DNA from: a virus
IMG/VR virus record: IMGVR_UViG_3300025889_000870
Coordinates: 1 to 25,325 of that record
Length of the DNA: 25,325 nucleotides
Direction: 5' to 3' (one strand)
In this document: positions 712 to 23,630 of the stretch, in pieces
How the letters are laid out: the number at the start of each line of letters is the position of its first letter
Position numbering within the stretch: the stretch's first letter is position 1
The notes under the pieces: model-generated
What the model saw: only the letters and a program-made list of their open reading frames with translations
The model's database searches: none
What the model was told of the DNA's origin: nothing
Translations under genes and position numbers: made by a program

Positions 712-744
712 GGGGGTATTTGGCCCACGGCCCCCTTTCCGTGG
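712..744 (-). promoter_or_regulatory. Candidate H-type RNA pseudoknot in the helicase leader
   Basis: Read on the minus strand, CCACGG (744-739) pairs with CCGTGG (730-725) in a 6-bp hairpin with loop AAAGGGGG. The loop GGGGG (735-731) is complementary to CCCCC (716-712), which follows after the 8-nt linker GCCAAATA. Stem 6 bp, loop 3 nt, stem 5 bp and loop 8 nt fit classical H-type pseudoknot geometry. It ends 18 nt before the Shine-Dalgarno of the helicase gene, so a role in translation control or attenuation is possible. A plain hairpin is the alternative; no U-tract follows, so an intrinsic terminator is unlikely. Pairing was judged by eye; function is inference. Confidence 0.4.
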
Positions 745-13803: not shown

Positions 13804-14031
13804 TTACGCCTCGCCAGATATAGCCTCTGGCGAAGTTACTGAAATACGAACACCTTTTGCCTCAGAGCCTGTCCAGCTATTGCCACATTGTGGACAATTG
13901 CCATTAGGATAAGACGCAATCTCTTCGGGGGTATCGACAGCGTTATCGCAAGAAGCACAGTGAATTAAATTTTGGCTGGTTGACGGCTTCCACCTAGAAC
14001 CATTTGGCATTGTAATAATTGTATCGGTCAT
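13804..14031 (-). CDS. Small zinc-ribbon protein
   Basis: The 75-aa protein has two CxxC pairs, Cys25/Cys28 (HCASC) and Cys46/Cys49 (NCPQCG), 17 residues apart, as in a zinc ribbon. The rest is polar with a Ser/Glu-rich tail. It could bind metal in a structural way or contact nucleic acid or protein. The start overlaps the preceding gene by ATGA, so it belongs to the tail operon. Function unknown. Confidence 0.75.
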   Translation of the reverse strand: MTDTIITMPNGSRWKPSTSQNLIHCASCDNAVDTPEEIASYPNGNCPQCGNSWTGSEAKGVRISVTSPEAISGEA

Positions 14032-14324
14032 GGCGTACTCACTGTTACGGAACCCACTGAACCAGTCGAAGTAGTTCCCACTATGTTTGCTCTGTTAATT
14101 AGAGCTATCTTAACAAAACCGTCCTCTTGAAACAAGCTACCTGCCTCTAGACCGTAATCAGAGTTAGGTAGTTGAGTGAGAACCAGCTTTGTATTTCTGC
14201 CTTCTCCCGGATTTCTTTGCTGATCTACAAAAACAGAAAAAGCTCTTGCTAGTTCTGAAAAGTATCTTTGATCGTATTGAACAGGGGGAACAGGAAAATA
14301 AGGAGGAGGAATGTTCCTAGACAT
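14028..14324 (-). CDS. Small tail-operon protein ending in a VTG-type module
   Basis: This 98-aa protein begins with a Pro-rich stretch (MSRNIPPPYFPVPPV), followed by a helix (YFSELARAFSVFVDQQR) and beta-like segments. Its C-terminus (residues 81-95, IVGTTSTGSVGSVTV) is one unit of the 22-residue repeat that builds the 254-aa protein and recurs in the 733-aa protein. The start is TAATG-coupled to the 733-aa gene. I recognise the protein as a common marine phage type without assigned role; a small tail or neck component is likely from context. Confidence 0.75.
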   Translation of the reverse strand: MSRNIPPPYFPVPPVQYDQRYFSELARAFSVFVDQQRNPGEGRNTKLVLTQLPNSDYGLEAGSLFQEDGFVKIALINRANIVGTTSTGSVGSVTVSTP

Positions 14325-16525
14325 TACCGCCTCCCATCTGTTCGTAAATCATACCGTAAAGAACCAAGCCGCCAAGCCACACCCAAATCATCCGACTCGA
14401 CTCGAACACTAAACTGCCGCCCCCGCAATCGCAGGTGAACTTGCTCAGTAGACGACTCAATGTTGCTAATCGTGGACTTAGAATACGATCCACCTACAGA
14501 GTTCTGAATCTCTGTAGTTATATCTACGTTTGGCGTTTCTGCGGTAGAGTCCCTAAACCCAACATCCGGCAACATCCTACGAATAAACGTAAAGTTTTCT
14601 CCGTCTTGGATATCAATCGGGCTAGACTTAACATAGGCAGAAATTGCAGATGCGGGGGACGTTGATCCGTCATCAAACCCTTCTTCGTGATTGTACAAGT
14701 AGTAATCTGTAGATGCAGCGATAGGTCGAGTGAAGATGCCACGGTCTACCCAAGCAGTGCGTTCTAACGTGCCATAATACCAGACTTTTTCTAGGTAATT
14801 ATAGACAACATACCTATCATTTGTTGCACTTGTAGACGAAGGATAGAACCACCAAATCTCTGAGTTTTCGGCATTCAAACCTGCAAATATTTTTTCCGCT
14901 TGTTGTTCGTTTAGATCATCAAAGACATAATCACGAACGCTGCACGGCACCCGCTGAACATTACCACCGTAAAGATAGAACTCAGATGTGCCCATCCAGA
15001 AAATATTGTCGTCTACTGCAACAGCAGCTTTTGGCCCTATGATGGTTATGTTTTGAGAGATAGAGTTAACACCGTAAGTGAACGGTGGCCCTAGATACTG
15101 CATTGCGTAAAGGGATGTGTCAGTGAAGATGATGATTTGCTGGCGTGTTTTAACAGCTTGAATGATTTCAGAACCGCCGCTCAAGCGCAACTCTCCTGCT
15201 GTATTCGTAGCTGTAGTTGCCCAATCCGTTAAAGATTCTTGATCCGAAAACCGAAGAGCCAAAGGGTCTTGTACGCCGGGATTTGTCTCCGTATCACAGC
15301 CAAACGCAATAACATGACGCTCATCCGCAACCATTACTTGTTTACATGTAGTTGGGGTAGAAGTCGCCCCCGTTAAATCTTGCAGCGCAACAGCACGATT
15401 GTTGGCTACTCCATCGCTAGAATCCCAGTAGTAAATGCTTCCGTCACGAGGATTGATTAGCAGGTCTTCACCAAAGTTATCTTGATTCCACAAGCGCAAG
15501 CTATCAGTACCTGTTACAACAACGCTGTCCGCTGCGCTGCCCCATGTGCCTCGTGACCATGTTCCTGCGCCCCAACCGCTGCCGTAAACAACTGTATCAA
15601 TGCCTGTATTTAGCTGATACCGCGCTACTGAAGTAATTCCACCATCGCCAGAGTCTAAAGAGTTTGCGACAACAGGTGTATAAACCAACTCACCATCTAC
15701 GGTAATAGACTGTATTGGGGTATTCGCGGTTCTGGCTGTAAATGTAAAAACAGTGGGGGAAGTAACCGCATCAATTTCATATTCTTGGTTGAGTATATCC
15801 GCAGTAATATTACCACCTAAACCGTTTACTCCACTAAAAGTCACAAAGTCACCTGCAACCGCACCATGCGGTTGGTTCACTGTAACCGTAATCGTAGAAG
15901 AGCCGTCCGTTGCAGCAAACGTAAGATCGTCAAATACGGTAACATCTTTTGTGGAAATGTTTACTGTTCCAACAGAGCCTGTTGTCTCTACCCCTGTGAC
16001 AGAAGCACTAGCATCAATGTCCCCAGAAATAGTTACTTCCCCGACAGAGCCTACCATTTCAGGGGAGGACACCAAAACAAGAGCATCATCATTAACACGA
16101 GCGTACGCCGTACCTACGGCTCCTGTGCCCTCTACCCCTGTTAATGTAGCGATGTTTTCATTTTTAGTGATCGTACCTACCCCTGTAGATGCCGATACAC
16201 CAACAATAGAAACCGAAATGTCTTCGTTTAGTTCGTTCGAAAAACGTATCGGGGTAACATCATAAAAAGCATTACCGTAGTTGATGTAGTATTTCTTGTT
16301 TGTACCCACACCTAAGTATTGATTTCGCTCTAATGTCACCCAAGGGTGCAAGGCACGAGCTACGCCCAAGTAGGACGCAGTGGTTTGCTTTAACCAACCA
16401 CCGATCTTTTCAGGAAAACCAAATCGGAAACGAATCTTGTCTCCATCGAACCAGCCACCTTCGTTTGAATACGAGGTAATTTCTCTGTTAACACCCGGTT
16501 TAAACTGAAGTTTTGTTAGTGGCAT
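14324..16525 (-). CDS. Putative tail structural protein with inserted repeat modules, 733 aa
   Basis: The N-terminal pattern (KLQFKPGVNRE, NEGGWFDGDKIRFR, EKIGGWLK) is frequent in marine short-tailed phages. The rest has many aromatic beta-strands (NQYLGVGTNKKYYINY; SEIWWFYPSSTS; WYYGTLERTAW), consistent with a beta-propeller such as the tail-hub protein P22 gp10, though this analogy is only by fold guess. Residues about 108-190 hold four degenerate copies of the VTG-ETTGSVGTV module, followed by a beta domain (VTVNQPHGAVAGDFVTFSG). The N-terminal and C-terminal parts read on as one protein around this insert. AGAGGTG precedes the ATG. Placed after the fibre and chaperone-like genes, it is probably part of the tail hub or nozzle. 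Confidence 0.82.
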   Translation of the reverse strand: MPLTKLQFKPGVNREITSYSNEGGWFDGDKIRFRFGFPEKIGGWLKQTTASYLGVARALHPWVTLERNQYLGVGTNKKYYINYGNAFYDVTPIRFSNELNEDISVSIVGVSASTGVGTITKNENIATLTGVEGTGAVGTAYARVNDDALVLVSSPEMVGSVGEVTISGDIDASASVTGVETTGSVGTVNISTKDVTVFDDLTFAATDGSSTITVTVNQPHGAVAGDFVTFSGVNGLGGNITADILNQEYEIDAVTSPTVFTFTARTANTPIQSITVDGELVYTPVVANSLDSGDGGITSVARYQLNTGIDTVVYGSGWGAGTWSRGTWGSAADSVVVTGTDSLRLWNQDNFGEDLLINPRDGSIYYWDSSDGVANNRAVALQDLTGATSTPTTCKQVMVADERHVIAFGCDTETNPGVQDPLALRFSDQESLTDWATTATNTAGELRLSGGSEIIQAVKTRQQIIIFTDTSLYAMQYLGPPFTYGVNSISQNITIIGPKAAVAVDDNIFWMGTSEFYLYGGNVQRVPCSVRDYVFDDLNEQQAEKIFAGLNAENSEIWWFYPSSTSATNDRYVVYNYLEKVWYYGTLERTAWVDRGIFTRPIAASTDYYLYNHEEGFDDGSTSPASAISAYVKSSPIDIQDGENFTFIRRMLPDVGFRDSTAETPNVDITTEIQNSVGGSYSKSTISNIESSTEQVHLRLRGRQFSVRVESDDLGVAWRLGSLRYDLRTDGRR
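15956..16204 (-). repeat. Four degenerate VTG modules inside the 733-aa gene
   Basis: Codons 108-190 hold four units with a period of about 21-24 residues: IVGVSASTGVGTI, LTGVEGTGAVGTA, VSSPEMVGSVGEV and VTGVETTGSVGTV. They resemble the units of the 254-aa protein encoded 2 kb away, but are more diverged. Confidence 0.7.
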
Positions 16526-18351: not shown

Positions 18352-19116
18352 CTAAGCCGCTATCTCAACCCAAGTGGTTTCTTGATCAGGTTCTATCTCA
18401 GTATAGCTTGTTCCCGGATTTGGTTCAATATTACTGTAGCTCGTACTTGGAGATGGCGTGATTTCCGTAAAACTTGTGCCCGGAGCAGGTATAATAGGCG
18501 TGTATGCCGTGCCCGGAGCAGGAATAATATTGCCCCAAACAATAACGCTGCCCACAACGCCTGTGGCCTCTAAGCCAGTGACATTAACAATCGCAGACGC
18601 ATTTACCGTTACGCTGCCCACATTGCCTGTAGCTTCCAAGCCAGTGACAGGAACGTTTGCGTCAGCCTCAACCGTTACAGTGCCAACGGCTCCCGTGGCC
18701 TCCAACCCAGTTACAGAAACAACAGCACTTCCTGTTACGGATACGTCACCAACAGCCCCTGTAGCCTCAAGACCCGTGACATTAACAATAGCATCAGCTT
18801 CGACAGTTACGTCACCAACGTTACCTGTGCCAGCAACGCCCGTAGGAGATACAACCGCCTCTCCAATTACGGTCGCCGTTCCAACGCCACCCGTTGCTTC
18901 TAAGCCCGTAGGAGATACAACCGCAGATGCAGCGACTGTAACGCTGCCTACACCACCAGTCGCCTCTAATCCTGTGACGGGTACATTGGCATCAGCTTCA
19001 ACCGTTACGCTGCCCACGGCTCCCGTGCCAGCGACACCCGTTACTTCAACAACAACGTTTGGATCAACACCACTATCCGCGAGTGGTGCGGAAGCTAATG
19101 GTGTAAATCCAAGCAT
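18352..19116 (-). CDS. Repeat protein of eight 22-aa VTG modules, 254 aa
   Basis: After a short head (MLGFTPLASAPLADSG, common in marine phage proteins) the product is almost entirely repeats. Residues about 20-194 hold eight 22-residue units with consensus VTGLEATGxVGxVTVxA/ExA. Residues 197-254 hold five 11-residue units with consensus IxPxPGTSYTE, exactly half the length. The regular alternation of Val/Thr strands and Gly turns suggests a beta-solenoid or a stack of strands forming a fibre-like or decoration element. It lies between two fibre genes, so a tail or fibre component is likely. GGAAG lies upstream of the ATG, 3 bp after the 80-aa gene. Function is not known to me. Confidence 0.8.
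   Translation of the reverse strand: MLGFTPLASAPLADSGVDPNVVVEVTGVAGTGAVGSVTVEADANVPVTGLEATGGVGSVTVAASAVVSPTGLEATGGVGTATVIGEAVVSPTGVAGTGNVGDVTVEADAIVNVTGLEATGAVGDVSVTGSAVVSVTGLEATGAVGTVTVEADANVPVTGLEATGNVGSVTVNASAIVNVTGLEATGVVGSVIVWGNIIPAPGTAYTPIIPAPGTSFTEITPSPSTSYSNIEPNPGTSYTEIEPDQETTWVEIAA
18355..18528 (-). repeat. Five tandem 33-nt coding repeats
   Basis: These encode the C-terminal 11-residue units of the 254-aa protein: IIPAPGTAYTP, IIPAPGTSFTE, ITPSPSTSYSN, IEPNPGTSYTE and a diverged last unit. The order Pro-x-Pro-Gly-Thr-x-aromatic is kept. Confidence 0.85.
18544..19060 (-). repeat. Eight tandem 66-nt coding repeats
   Basis: The repeats keep exact 66-nt spacing and differ mostly at third positions and in the variable linker, so selection is on protein. 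Adjacent units share blocks at the DNA level, for instance around the GTAGGAGATACAACCGC segment, suggesting recent unit exchange. There are no spacers: this is a coding repeat. Confidence 0.88.
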
Positions 19117-19364: not shown

Positions 19365-21908
19365 TTAGGTTCCTTCTAACTCAGCTATACGCGCCTCAAG
19401 CGCATCACATTTTGCCGACAGTTCTTGTACGGCTTTCACAAGAATAGGATATGAACGAACATAATCCGCCTCTAACTTTTCAGGGTTTGACCAATTCACC
19501 AAGCGTGTGCGCGATGAAGATGAGTGGTCTAGCTCAACATCGTGCAACTCTTGAGCAATAAAGCCGATATCTGTCTTTGCACCCAACGATCCATCACGGC
19601 GGTTCCAAGTGAACTGCACTGGGCGCATGTCGTTGATGAAGTCTAACCCATAGCTAATATCTGTAATCGCAGTTTTGTCGCGCTCGTCTGATAGACTGCT
19701 TATAGTCTGAACATTACAGCGCAGTGATGTGATATTATTATCACCAAGCGTAATTTCGTTTGTAGCTGTCGCGCCACTAGGCATAGCTTCATTGCCAACA
19801 CAGGTAACATTAGAACCTGTTGTCAGTGCGTTTGTTGTAGAGCCGCCCTGTGAATACCCTGCGTTATATCCTAGAAAAGTGTTGTTGGCTCCAGTGTTTA
19901 CGCTGCGACCTGCATATGCTCCAAAAGCTGAATTATCATCACCCTCAGTCAAGCTATAGAGAGCTTCATTTCCTAAAGCAGCGGCATAAGACGCTGATGT
20001 TAAGCTGTAAAGACTTCTATAACCGCTACCTACATTATAACTTCCAGAACCGCCATTATACCCACTCTGATAGCCCAAGAAGGAATTATAATCGCCACCG
20101 TCTACGTCATACCCAGCTTGATAACCAATATAAACGTTATATTGTGAAGTGCTTAAAGCACTAGCCCCAGCTTGATAACCAATAGAAACGCCGCCTGCTG
20201 CTGATTGTGCATTCCCACCGATGCAAACAAAGTAACTTGCCGTGTTATCGGCTGTATCTGTATTATATCCTACAAGTGTATTGTAGTCTCCAGAATATAC
20301 ATTATCACCACTATCATAACCAATTGCGACATTATAATATGGATTACTTGTGGTTGATCTGCCTAACGCATCATAGCCAATAGCAACTGAACGCTGATGA
20401 TTTCCATCTGACATTGCATCATAGCCAATAGCCACACTATAATCACCATCACAGTCATTCATGGCATTATAGCCAATAGCGACTTGGTAGTCTTTACTGC
20501 TTACGGCATAGTTCCCTGCCAAAGAACCTACATAAGTGCCGCCTGTTAGAAAAGTGCCGCGACCTGCGTTACTACCGACAGCCACTGAATTTGTATCAGT
20601 CGCGTTATCATACATGGCGGAAACGCCAATAGCGACATTATTACTCGCTGTAGTTAAGTTAAAACCCGCTTGATAGCCTAATGCTGTGTTATAATTGCCA
20701 CTGGTTACATCTAAAAGAGCTTGGTGTCCAGCACCTACGTTGCCAGTGCCTGCTCCTGTCCCACCCACTGCGCCATAACCGACTGCTATGTTACTTGATC
20801 CCGTGTTAACAGTTAAAGCATAACCACCAACAGCGATATTTTGAGAACCTGTGGTTGTGTCAGCGCCTGCCTCTCGTCCAATGGCGATATTATGAGCGCC
20901 AAAGGTTACGCTTTCACCCGCTTGCCTTCCTACTGCAATATTATTACTGCCTGCAAAACTGCTGCTGGTTAATGCTTGATAACCAACTGCTACGTTAGCA
21001 TCACCATTACCACCATCAAGAGCCTGAGCGCCAACTACAACATTATAATTTCCTGTAGTTATATTAAATCCAGCACTCCTACCAACTGCTGTATTATATT
21101 CTCCAGAAGTTGTACTACCTAATGAAGCTCTGCCAACTGCTGTATTGCTTATTCCCGTTAATGCGCCGTGCAATGCTTGATAACCAACTGCTACAGAGCT
21201 TGCAGCTCCAGTATTGTTATCAAAGGATTGAAACCCTATTGCTACGTTGTTAGTAGCAGTGGTTAAATCATTTCCTGCTTCATGACCAACTAAAACATTC
21301 GCGTCACCACCCGTTATTGCGGCTCCTGCGCCTGAACCTATGGCTACATTCCAAAAAGAAGAACCATAAGCCATTGAGCTTAAAGCGTCATCGCCTATAG
21401 GAATATTAAAGTAGTTATCGTCGCTATCGCCTTGCAAAAAATTATTCTGCCAAAGCATTACCTGACCGCTTTGGTCTGGCAGGGAAATTGTGCGATCAGC
21501 TTCGGGGTCTACCACTGTAAGTGTGGTTTCAAAATCGTCAGCAGTTGATCCTTCAAAGACAATGTTAACATTGCTTAATGCAATATCACCAGAAAATGTG
21601 CCGCCACTTTCTAAGATTAAATCTTCTGCCGCAGCCGTAATAAACACGACCGCGCTGCCAGACAGGTTAAGCAAAGAGCCTGTTGAACTTTCAGTCAATG
21701 TGCGTGAAAGCGTTGTGCCAGTGGCGGTATAGGTGCCAGTGCCAATTTCCCAAGCGTCACCATCTTCTATCGTGTAACGCACAACATCAGCATCAGACAC
21801 CCCGCCATCCGCAAACGACTGATAGCCTGTCTCAGCAGCTCCAAGCGTTATCGTGCCTGTGCCTGTGGTTGCCGTAGCGACCTTAACTCTATTGGCTAAA
21901 ACAACCAT
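19365..21908 (-). CDS. Self-cleaving tail fibre with peptidase S74 chaperone, 847 aa
   Basis: Residues 1-100 form a tail-attachment domain type ([33 protein letters not shown]). About residues 168-725 carry some 30 units ending NVAIGYQAG or similar, as in the head of YadA-like trimeric adhesins. The C-terminal domain is an intramolecular chaperone of the peptidase S74/endosialidase family. SDERDK (740-745) supplies the Ser740-Lys745 dyad (Ser and Lys five apart as in endosialidases), followed by GFIAQEL and a coiled coil ([18 protein letters not shown]). Family knowledge predicts that trimerisation is followed by cleavage before Ser740, releasing a 108-residue chaperone. It likely binds the host surface. 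The ATG follows the 149-aa gene by 2 bp. Confidence 0.92.
19740..21410 (-). repeat. About 30 degenerate adhesin-head coding repeats
   Basis: The units, roughly 14-23 residues apart, share N-x-A-[IV]-G-x-x-A-[GL] with variable linkers. At the DNA level they are diverged and cannot recombine easily except for short stretches such as the ATAGCCAATAGC blocks near 20380-20480. Confidence 0.75.
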
Positions 21909-22657: not shown

Positions 22658-23307
22658 TATTGTTTCGCCCTTATAACTTTACCAGTGCGGTATTCATCCG
22701 TTGTTTCTTTGGCTTCGCCTAGCATCTTGAGGCCAGAAAGCGATTCAGTAAACCTTTTATCGTAATACGCCATCATATCTTGCTCACCTTTCATAAATAG
22801 ATAAGCCTCGACAAGAGAGCCATAAAGAAGAGTTAACTCTGCATTTATACTTAACCAAGTGGTTCCGCTATCTGTACCTGCAGTCAAACTTGCAGGTCTA
22901 TAGAAGTAATGAAGTTCTGCAGTGTATGTAGTATCTGGAGTTGGAGCTAACATAAAATTATCCACATCAAACTGTGAATAATAACGAGGCGCACCAGTTG
23001 TAGTTGAGTCAGGAGTATAGCTTTGCAAAAAGCTAGGGTCTTTAAAATCAATAAAGAACTTATCCCCATCAGCACCTGCTAGACTTAAAGAAAACGGAGC
23101 TAAAAAGTCACTTGGACACGCTAAGTATTTATTGCTTGCCGTAGTTGCCGCTGTTGCGTTTTTTCTGAATAGACTAAGTTGAACGCTTTTTAAAATACGT
23201 TCTTCAGCTTGTCGAATAAACAAAGGCAAGTTTGTGACGAATGTAGTTTCATCATTTTCAGTGTAATCCTGAATTGCCTGTTTAAGCTGTGCGTATGTAA
23301 AACTCAT
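22657..23307 (-). CDS. SU10-like head-tail adaptor protein
   Basis: The 216-aa protein opens with a helical pattern (SFTYAQLKQAIQDYTEND, then FVTNLPLFIRQAEERILKSV) seen in phage adaptor proteins of the SU10 type, which form the ring between portal and tail. A beta-rich middle (APRYYSQFDVDNFMLAPTPD; YTAELHYFYRPASLT) and helical end (MMAYYDKRFTESLSGLK) follow. It overlaps the 108-aa gene by ATGA. Together with the 222-aa protein it probably makes the neck. A tail tubular protein of similar fold is the alternative. Confidence 0.75.
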   Translation of the reverse strand: MSFTYAQLKQAIQDYTENDETTFVTNLPLFIRQAEERILKSVQLSLFRKNATAATTASNKYLACPSDFLAPFSLSLAGADGDKFFIDFKDPSFLQSYTPDSTTTGAPRYYSQFDVDNFMLAPTPDTTYTAELHYFYRPASLTAGTDSGTTWLSINAELTLLYGSLVEAYLFMKGEQDMMAYYDKRFTESLSGLKMLGEAKETTDEYRTGKVIRAKQ

Positions 23308-23630
23308 GTCGTCACCACCGTAACTGCTCCCACAGAGCCTGTCATTTTTAATCTATTAGGAGTCAAGCCACCATCAGAGGGTCCGCCAATAGGATTCCAA
23401 CTCCACTGAATGTTTCTTTCTTGATTCAAATCTGGCTCTGGTCTTGCATCTTTAATAGCCTGTGGGTCTGGGGGGACTCGTAAAGGCTCTAATTGTGGAT
23501 GCTTTTCTTCCCATTCATCTTTACCAACAAGAAGGCCATTCCACTCTTTACGCATGTCTTTTAACCGATATCTGAAACCAGATCGGTCTGAAATGCCGTA
23601 GGCCCATTTACCTGTTGCGAATTTAGACAA
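23304..23630 (-). CDS. Small neck-region protein ending in a VTG-type module
   Basis: The 108-aa protein (KWAYGISDRSGFRYRLKDM, then LVGKDEW and a Pro-rich middle) is a type found next to adaptor genes in marine phages. It ends with LKMTGSVGAVTV (residues 94-105), a partial copy of the 22-residue module of the 254-aa protein. The start codon is TTG (23630), supported by AAGGA at 9-nt spacing and an 8-bp overlap with the stop of the 222-aa gene; no in-frame ATG exists before residue 27. Function unknown. Confidence 0.75.
   Translation of the reverse strand: MSKFATGKWAYGISDRSGFRYRLKDMRKEWNGLLVGKDEWEEKHPQLEPLRVPPDPQAIKDARPEPDLNQERNIQWSWNPIGGPSDGGLTPNRLKMTGSVGAVTVVTT

Follow-up and report, generated by a model that had tools for sequence, protein, structure and literature searches.

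Pseudoknotted mRNA operators of ribosomal proteins, such as that of E. coli S15, place a compact knot near the start codon. In phage T4, gp32 binds a pseudoknot in its own leader, 67 nt upstream of the start codon (PMC3014915, in which S15 is also mentioned). Class 1 exoribonuclease-resistant RNAs (xrRNAs) of flaviviruses combine a three-way junction with a pseudoknot between a loop and the 3' flank, and a flaviviral xrRNA stops bacterial RNase J1 (PMC5760640). The element that we describe here is a structured RNA of ~80 nt, a three-way junction locked by a pseudoknot, which lies on the sense strand behind the stop codon of an SSB-like gene in a large group of phages, uncultured and for the most part marine. 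An earlier note had proposed a compact pseudoknot; the knot is real, but it forms only part of this roughly 80-nt RNA.

The window (the whole 25,325-nt stretch of viral DNA that was analysed) carries the element within a recombination cassette, where the minus strand is the coding strand for all genes (Table 1). AlphaFold predicts an OB fold for the SSB-like protein (pLDDT 82), and in a structure comparison this model matches PrgE (E 1.4e-4), a plasmid-encoded OB-fold ssDNA-binding protein (PMC11137577); judged from the predicted model, SSB-like is a reasonable label for this phrog_2300 protein. From its stop codon (780) to the ATG of the helicase gene (682) there is a gap of 97 nt with the pseudoknot inside (779-683, minus-strand letters TATCTAGCGGCACAGGTCACTCCGCACCTGCTAGACCACGGAAAGGGGGCCGTGGGCCAAATACCCCCTCACTTTCTAGATCAAATGGAGTCCCAAC), so that the knot is indeed upstream of the helicase ribosome-binding site and beside the SSB-like gene, as the earlier note had placed it. 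That this was the only long gap of the cassette held in part: the upstream genes mostly abut or overlap, but a 59-nt gap at 2655-2713 is also present. Read along the minus strand, the knot consists of CCACGG (744-739), AAA (738-736), GGGGG (735-731), CCGTGG (730-725), GCCAAATA (724-717) and CCCCC (716-712), with 0 nt at the S1-S2 junction, an exact match to the geometry first proposed (a 6-bp S1, a 3-nt L1, no junction, GGGGG/CCCCC and 8 nt between the stem and the C-run). In the window the P2 loop (ACTCC) is also complementary to the ribosome-binding site of the helicase gene (GGAGT), a pairing that we set aside as the loop is not conserved.

Elsewhere in the window, a 254-aa open reading frame (18352-19116, minus strand) repeats a motif like VTGLEATGxVGxVTV about ten times, and an antisense reading frame of 225 aa stays open across these repeats. 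One or a few copies of the same motif are also present in otherwise different minus-strand genes at 14324-16525, 14028-14324 and 23304-23630. An 847-aa protein (19365-21908, minus strand) is rich in AVGYxAL-type repeats, and its C-terminal region resembles an intramolecular chaperone; judged by eye from its sequence, it is probably a tail fibre.

Table 1. Positions of the cassette genes and of the parts of the RNA element in the window.
Feature	Position	Strand	Basis or remark
Sak4-like AAA recombinase (phrog_124, AAA_24)	1384-2256	minus	
SSB-like gene (phrog_2300)	780-1391	minus	OB-fold model resembling ssDNA-binding protein PrgE
5' TCTAGC, a few nt from the SSB stop in relatives; potential partner of central GCTAGA	772-777	minus	position
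P3, closing stem of the three-way junction, GGC 771-769 with GCC 724-722	722-771	minus	pairing cells and tree events
P2 hairpin, CAGGT 767-763 with ACCTG 754-750, variable loop	750-767	minus	covariation
Central GCTAGA, complementary to the 5' and 3' copies	745-750	minus	invariant in 63/63 distinct rows (some loci were fetched with a pattern requiring this linker; protein-fetched loci show the same invariance)
S1 hairpin, CCACGG 744-739 with CCGTGG 730-725	725-744	minus	compensatory changes
H-type pseudoknot, S1 6 bp, L1 3 nt, S2 5 bp, L3 8 nt	712-744	minus	sequence and covariation
S2 pseudoknot helix, GGGGG 735-731 with CCCCC 716-712	712-735	minus	99.2% of cells paired; double changes
3' TCTAGA, third CTAG copy, mostly 14-20 nt ahead of the downstream start codon	700-705	minus	position
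GGAG, likely helicase ribosome-binding site	690-693	minus	sequence
DEAD/ResIII-type helicase (phrog_16)	2-682	minus	runs off the window

A pseudoknot seen in one sequence is not beyond chance, because dinucleotide-shuffled windows average ~2 comparable H-type knots of 6+5 bp. The nested fold of the region is likewise no more stable than that of shuffles (z = -0.27). It is the comparative evidence, not single-sequence statistics, that is decisive for the predicted pseudoknot. Because MAFFT by itself placed S1 and S2 wrongly in part of the rows, the 63 distinct rows were aligned with a covariance model (alignment A3), with four rows shifted by hand. Over the whole structure, 97.2% of the cells in this alignment are paired, as compared with 89.0% in shuffles and 42-55% in slid controls, and changes on both sides were found at 13 pairs.

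When changes were placed on a tree, S1 had 17 compensatory double changes and 4 breaks, and P2 had two double changes, eight single changes that keep the pair and one break; A3 was fitted to P1, P2 and S1, so these counts lean towards the model, while S2, P3 and P0 were outside it. S2 had three double changes (G-C to A-U), four pair-keeping single changes and two breaks, so the compensatory stem changes in related phages that the earlier note had named as a check are present in both helices of the knot. For P3, one double change and three pair-keeping single changes were found with no breaks, and its cells comprise 172 Watson-Crick pairs, 6 G-U pairs and 0 mismatches. Against a tree-simulated null, our own simplified version of the R-scape idea, two S1 column pairs (52-71 and 54-69) had E values of about 0 and a third (55-68) an E of 0.1, while the C-G/U-A change at P2 column pair 20-39 had an E of 0.03. 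The pairs of S2 and P3 are mostly invariant and individually not significant in this test (E 1.3 for S2 column pair 66-83). The fold is thus kept while the letters change, and the structure is therefore real and works as RNA, probably by setting the expression of the SSB-like and helicase genes from the message that they share. Across all helices there are 39 G-U cells and 8 A-C cells, an excess from which we conclude that the selected molecule is the coding-strand RNA, rather than DNA or the opposite strand.

With both S1 and S2 conserved and covarying, the knot belongs to the H-type class. The surrounding junction is closed by P3, its arms are the P2 hairpin and S1, and S2 links the S1 loop to the nucleotides that immediately follow P3. 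In most rows the 3' strand of S1 runs straight into that of P3, and no nucleotides are left to form a junction. P3 is a 5-bp stem in the other clade (GCGGC/GCCGC), and in three loci (L026, L029 and L066) it is shifted in register yet still complementary (CGC/GCG). Three segments vary across rows, namely the loop of P2, L1 and the L3 tail. The related loci carry the motif with drifted stems.

Three CTAG segments frame this core. The 5' and 3' copies are nearly invariant, and both are complementary to the central GCTAGA that links P2 to S1. Pairing of the 5' TCTAGC with GCTAGA (750-745) would form a further helix, P1; on the tree it had 8 breaks and 0 compensations, and it is broken in L121, L130, L207, L205 and L275. 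No covariation was found in the alignment for the pairing of the 3' copy with GCTAGA, and this copy is lost or altered in L181, L276, L104 and L308. The P1-hairpin and P3-junction forms have equal mean nested energies (-18.3 vs. -18.5 kcal/mol).

To follow the element among phages, we scanned IMG/VR with the SSB-like protein, which gave 80 loci, and later scans added more. The element was directly behind the SSB-like stop codon in 207 of the 207 loci with an intact junction, out of 215 loci of the close clade, figures that include repeat fetches of the same contigs and are not a count of independent phages. In several junctions (L085, L105 and L133; L121, L130, L205 and L207) the stop codon overlaps or abuts the 5' strand of the element (TAGCTAGC or TAACGAGC), and the coding end and the element are therefore fused. 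A scan with a DNA pattern, independent of the protein, again found the motif only behind the SSB-like gene, the remaining matches having no fold by eye, and the covariance model found one copy per record in 30 long records. When each species was represented by one genome, a scan found a close relative of the SSB-like protein only on two metagenome-assembled genome (MAG) contigs, assigned to a Rhodobacteraceae (L281) and to Thalassolituus (L282). The element is present on both; MAG contigs are a weak guide to the host, and the occurrence in two unrelated bacterial MAGs suggests phage contigs binned with hosts or with bystanders. Among 397 Rhodobacteraceae genomes scanned, that Rhodobacteraceae MAG was the only one with the element.

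Cultured phages had no similar DNA. Their only relatives of the SSB-like protein are in Wolbachia phage WO and Acidithiobacillus phage AcaML1, with identities of about 30%, and the covariance model had no match in the two loci that were read from these phages. In distant homologues from Alphaproteobacteria genomes and the AcaML1-like phage clade the SSB-helicase order is kept with a gap of 1-15 nt (18 loci), and the element is absent from these junctions. A helicase gene without the pairing, which the earlier note had taken as evidence against a functional knot, was thus encountered in none of the 207 close loci and only in this distant clade, whose SSB proteins are about 26-34% identical to that of the window. 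Because the distant homologues have near-gapless junctions that lack the element, we infer from its distribution that the element was probably added in this clade. The near-gapless junctions also make possible a clean natural comparison between replication/recombination operons that have an RNA device and those that lack one.

The element was first proposed as part of the helicase leader, an assignment that did not survive the comparison, as the element goes with the 3' end of the SSB-like gene. Of 62 distinct variants, 53 have the helicase as the next gene and the other 9 a PDDEXK_14 endonuclease; where read, the endonuclease gene abuts the helicase start. Since either gene may follow, the constant neighbor of the element is the SSB 3' end and not one target gene. 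Gene content switches immediately past the 3' CTAG copy, as seen on comparing L031 with L032 and L015 with L016. L031 and L032 are identical up to this copy and then diverge, which places the 3' boundary of the element at the 3' CTAG copy. The endonuclease gene (phrog_7141, 138-142 aa; found behind the element in L016, L025, L031, L068, L086, L104, L243, L276 and L280) comes and goes among junctions that are otherwise almost identical, as a mobile or exchangeable gene would.

What might such an RNA do? The reading that we prefer, which we hold as a real possibility short of a probability, is that the element is a cis-acting barrier on the polycistronic message. It would separate the ribosome terminating on the SSB-like gene from the next start codon, breaking translational coupling between SSB and helicase, and it would stall exoribonucleases, so that the SSB and helicase parts of the message would be held at different levels. 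The outcome would be much SSB and little helicase, and a ligand would not be required. In favor of this reading are the compensatory changes that keep the fold, the coding-RNA strand, the single copy always directly behind the SSB stop, the indifference to which gene follows, and the absence of the element where the genes almost touch. Two negative results also count for it: there is no obvious conserved single-stranded ligand pocket in the alignment, and a terminator scan found none in the SSB-helicase gap. Against it, a plain barrier would not need S2, P3 and the three CTAG segments to be as conserved as they are, a hint of alternative pairings or of a specific partner, and an effect on translation initiation was not supported by the calculation of ribosome-binding-site accessibility.

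A specific partner could be the neighboring protein. The SSB-like protein (or Sak4), once in excess of free ssDNA, would bind the pseudoknot, spread over the next ribosome-binding site and shut off the helicase in the manner of gp32. The strict linkage to the SSB family (207/207 close loci), the match of the AlphaFold model to an OB-fold ssDNA-binding protein, the strongly conserved helix residues and the T4 precedent are all consistent with such an operator. However, the knot is 3' of ssb, making T4-style repression of ssb initiation impossible; T4 requires an A+U-rich unstructured repeat tract over the ribosome-binding site, and the tract here is short and mixed; and distant SSB homologues do without the element. 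We regard protein sensing of this kind as unlikely.

If the partner were instead a metabolite or an ion, for example a nucleotide signalling the state of replication, the junction and pseudoknot would form a small-molecule riboswitch setting replication gene expression. The architecture fits (a junction plus a pseudoknot in about 80 nt), and core segments are strongly conserved. Yet a conserved unpaired pocket is not obvious, the gap has no terminator, and no change in ribosome-binding-site accessibility was computed, in a calculation that cannot model the pseudoknot itself. The restriction to one gene family in one phage clade and the lack of an Rfam match also speak against a riboswitch, which we consider quite unlikely.

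An exonuclease block would leave a protected helicase message: the knotted junction would halt a 5'-3' exonuclease, RNase J in Alphaproteobacteria, past ssb, as flaviviral xrRNAs do. A three-way junction with a loop-to-3'-flank pseudoknot is common to the element and class 1 xrRNAs, the stop of RNase J1 by a flaviviral xrRNA provides a bacterial precedent, and RNase J is present in R. sphaeroides (PMC7866481). The Rhodobacteraceae MAG with the element encodes an RNase J homologue, which scores below the curated cut-off of the family. What is missing is the xrRNA PK1, in which the 5' flank pairs with nucleotides between P3 and P1, a junction of about 0 nt here; the other 5' pairing that could take its place, to the linker of P2 and S1, lacks compensations, as described above, and the host is uncertain. 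A full isomorphism with class 1 xrRNAs, considered at one point, was scaled down given the location of PK1 and the failure of P1 to covary. An exonuclease block of this kind seems improbable, and we give only a slim chance to the stronger proposal that a phage-encoded exoribonuclease-resistant RNA would mechanically stop RNase J on a DNA phage message, convergently with flaviviral xrRNAs. Such an RNA would, to our knowledge, be the first natural example in bacteria.

Alternative pairings are the basis of a translation-sensing switch, in which a ribosome at the SSB stop would cover the 5' TCTAGCGGC and GCTAGA would swap to the 3' TCTAG, altering access to the next gene. The 5' CTAG strand sits where a terminating ribosome would cover the mRNA, starting within a few nt of the stop codon in all rows, GCTAGA does not vary, and the computed pairing of GCTAGA with the 3' copy increases from 0.18 to 0.69 once the 5' strand is masked. 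However, the computed accessibility of the helicase Shine-Dalgarno sequence is the same in both states (0.49 vs. 0.51, with the pseudoknot entered as a constraint only), the 5' pairing or the 3' copy is lost or altered in several rows, and neither pairing covaries. We find this switch hard to credit, and the idea that alternative pairings hide or expose the helicase ribosome-binding site was not supported by the calculation. Programmed frameshifting or readthrough is also unlikely from the sequence, as the SSB frame does not end in a slippery heptamer and ~35 nt separate its stop codon from the start of the knot. A DNA-level element, such as a replication or recombination site or a mosaic joint with an incidental RNA fold, would suit the change in gene content right behind the 3' CTAG copy, but is very improbable given the G-U excess (39 vs. 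8 A-C) and the compensatory changes in the pseudoknot, both signatures of selection on sense RNA.

How does the element relate to known RNAs? No match to Rfam 15 was found in the window at gathering scores, nor at E values up to 10 in 560-900. We found no paper describing the element in a literature search that left most subscription papers outside, and an earlier description is possible. The RNA that the favored barrier and its rivals all concern is short, at about 80 nt, closely conserved and suited to probing; if SSB binding or an exonuclease block were true, it would represent a new way for phages to balance replication proteins. Like the T4 gene 32 autoregulatory pseudoknot, the element has an H-type knot in a phage message, linked to the gene of an ssDNA-binding protein and upstream of a ribosome-binding site. 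Unlike that operator, whose knot is upstream of the ssb start codon, it is behind the ssb stop, within a three-way junction and before a helicase or endonuclease gene. Operators of ribosomal proteins such as S15 also place a compact pseudoknot in the message near a start codon, and differ in gene family and architecture; the sequence relation was compared via Rfam only. With class 1 flaviviral xrRNAs the element shares the three-way junction, a third-hairpin loop that pairs just 3' of the closing stem (PK2, here the P3/P2/S1 junction with S2) and a conserved core, but the sequence, host and genome type differ, there is no Rfam match, and PK1 is absent, for which reason we do not file the element as an xrRNA. 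Finally, a covarying structure and defined boundaries are properties of families in Rfam release 15, and the comparison of sequences strongly supports a new structured-RNA family, one that Rfam 15 does not contain, at one fixed site in the replication/recombination operon.
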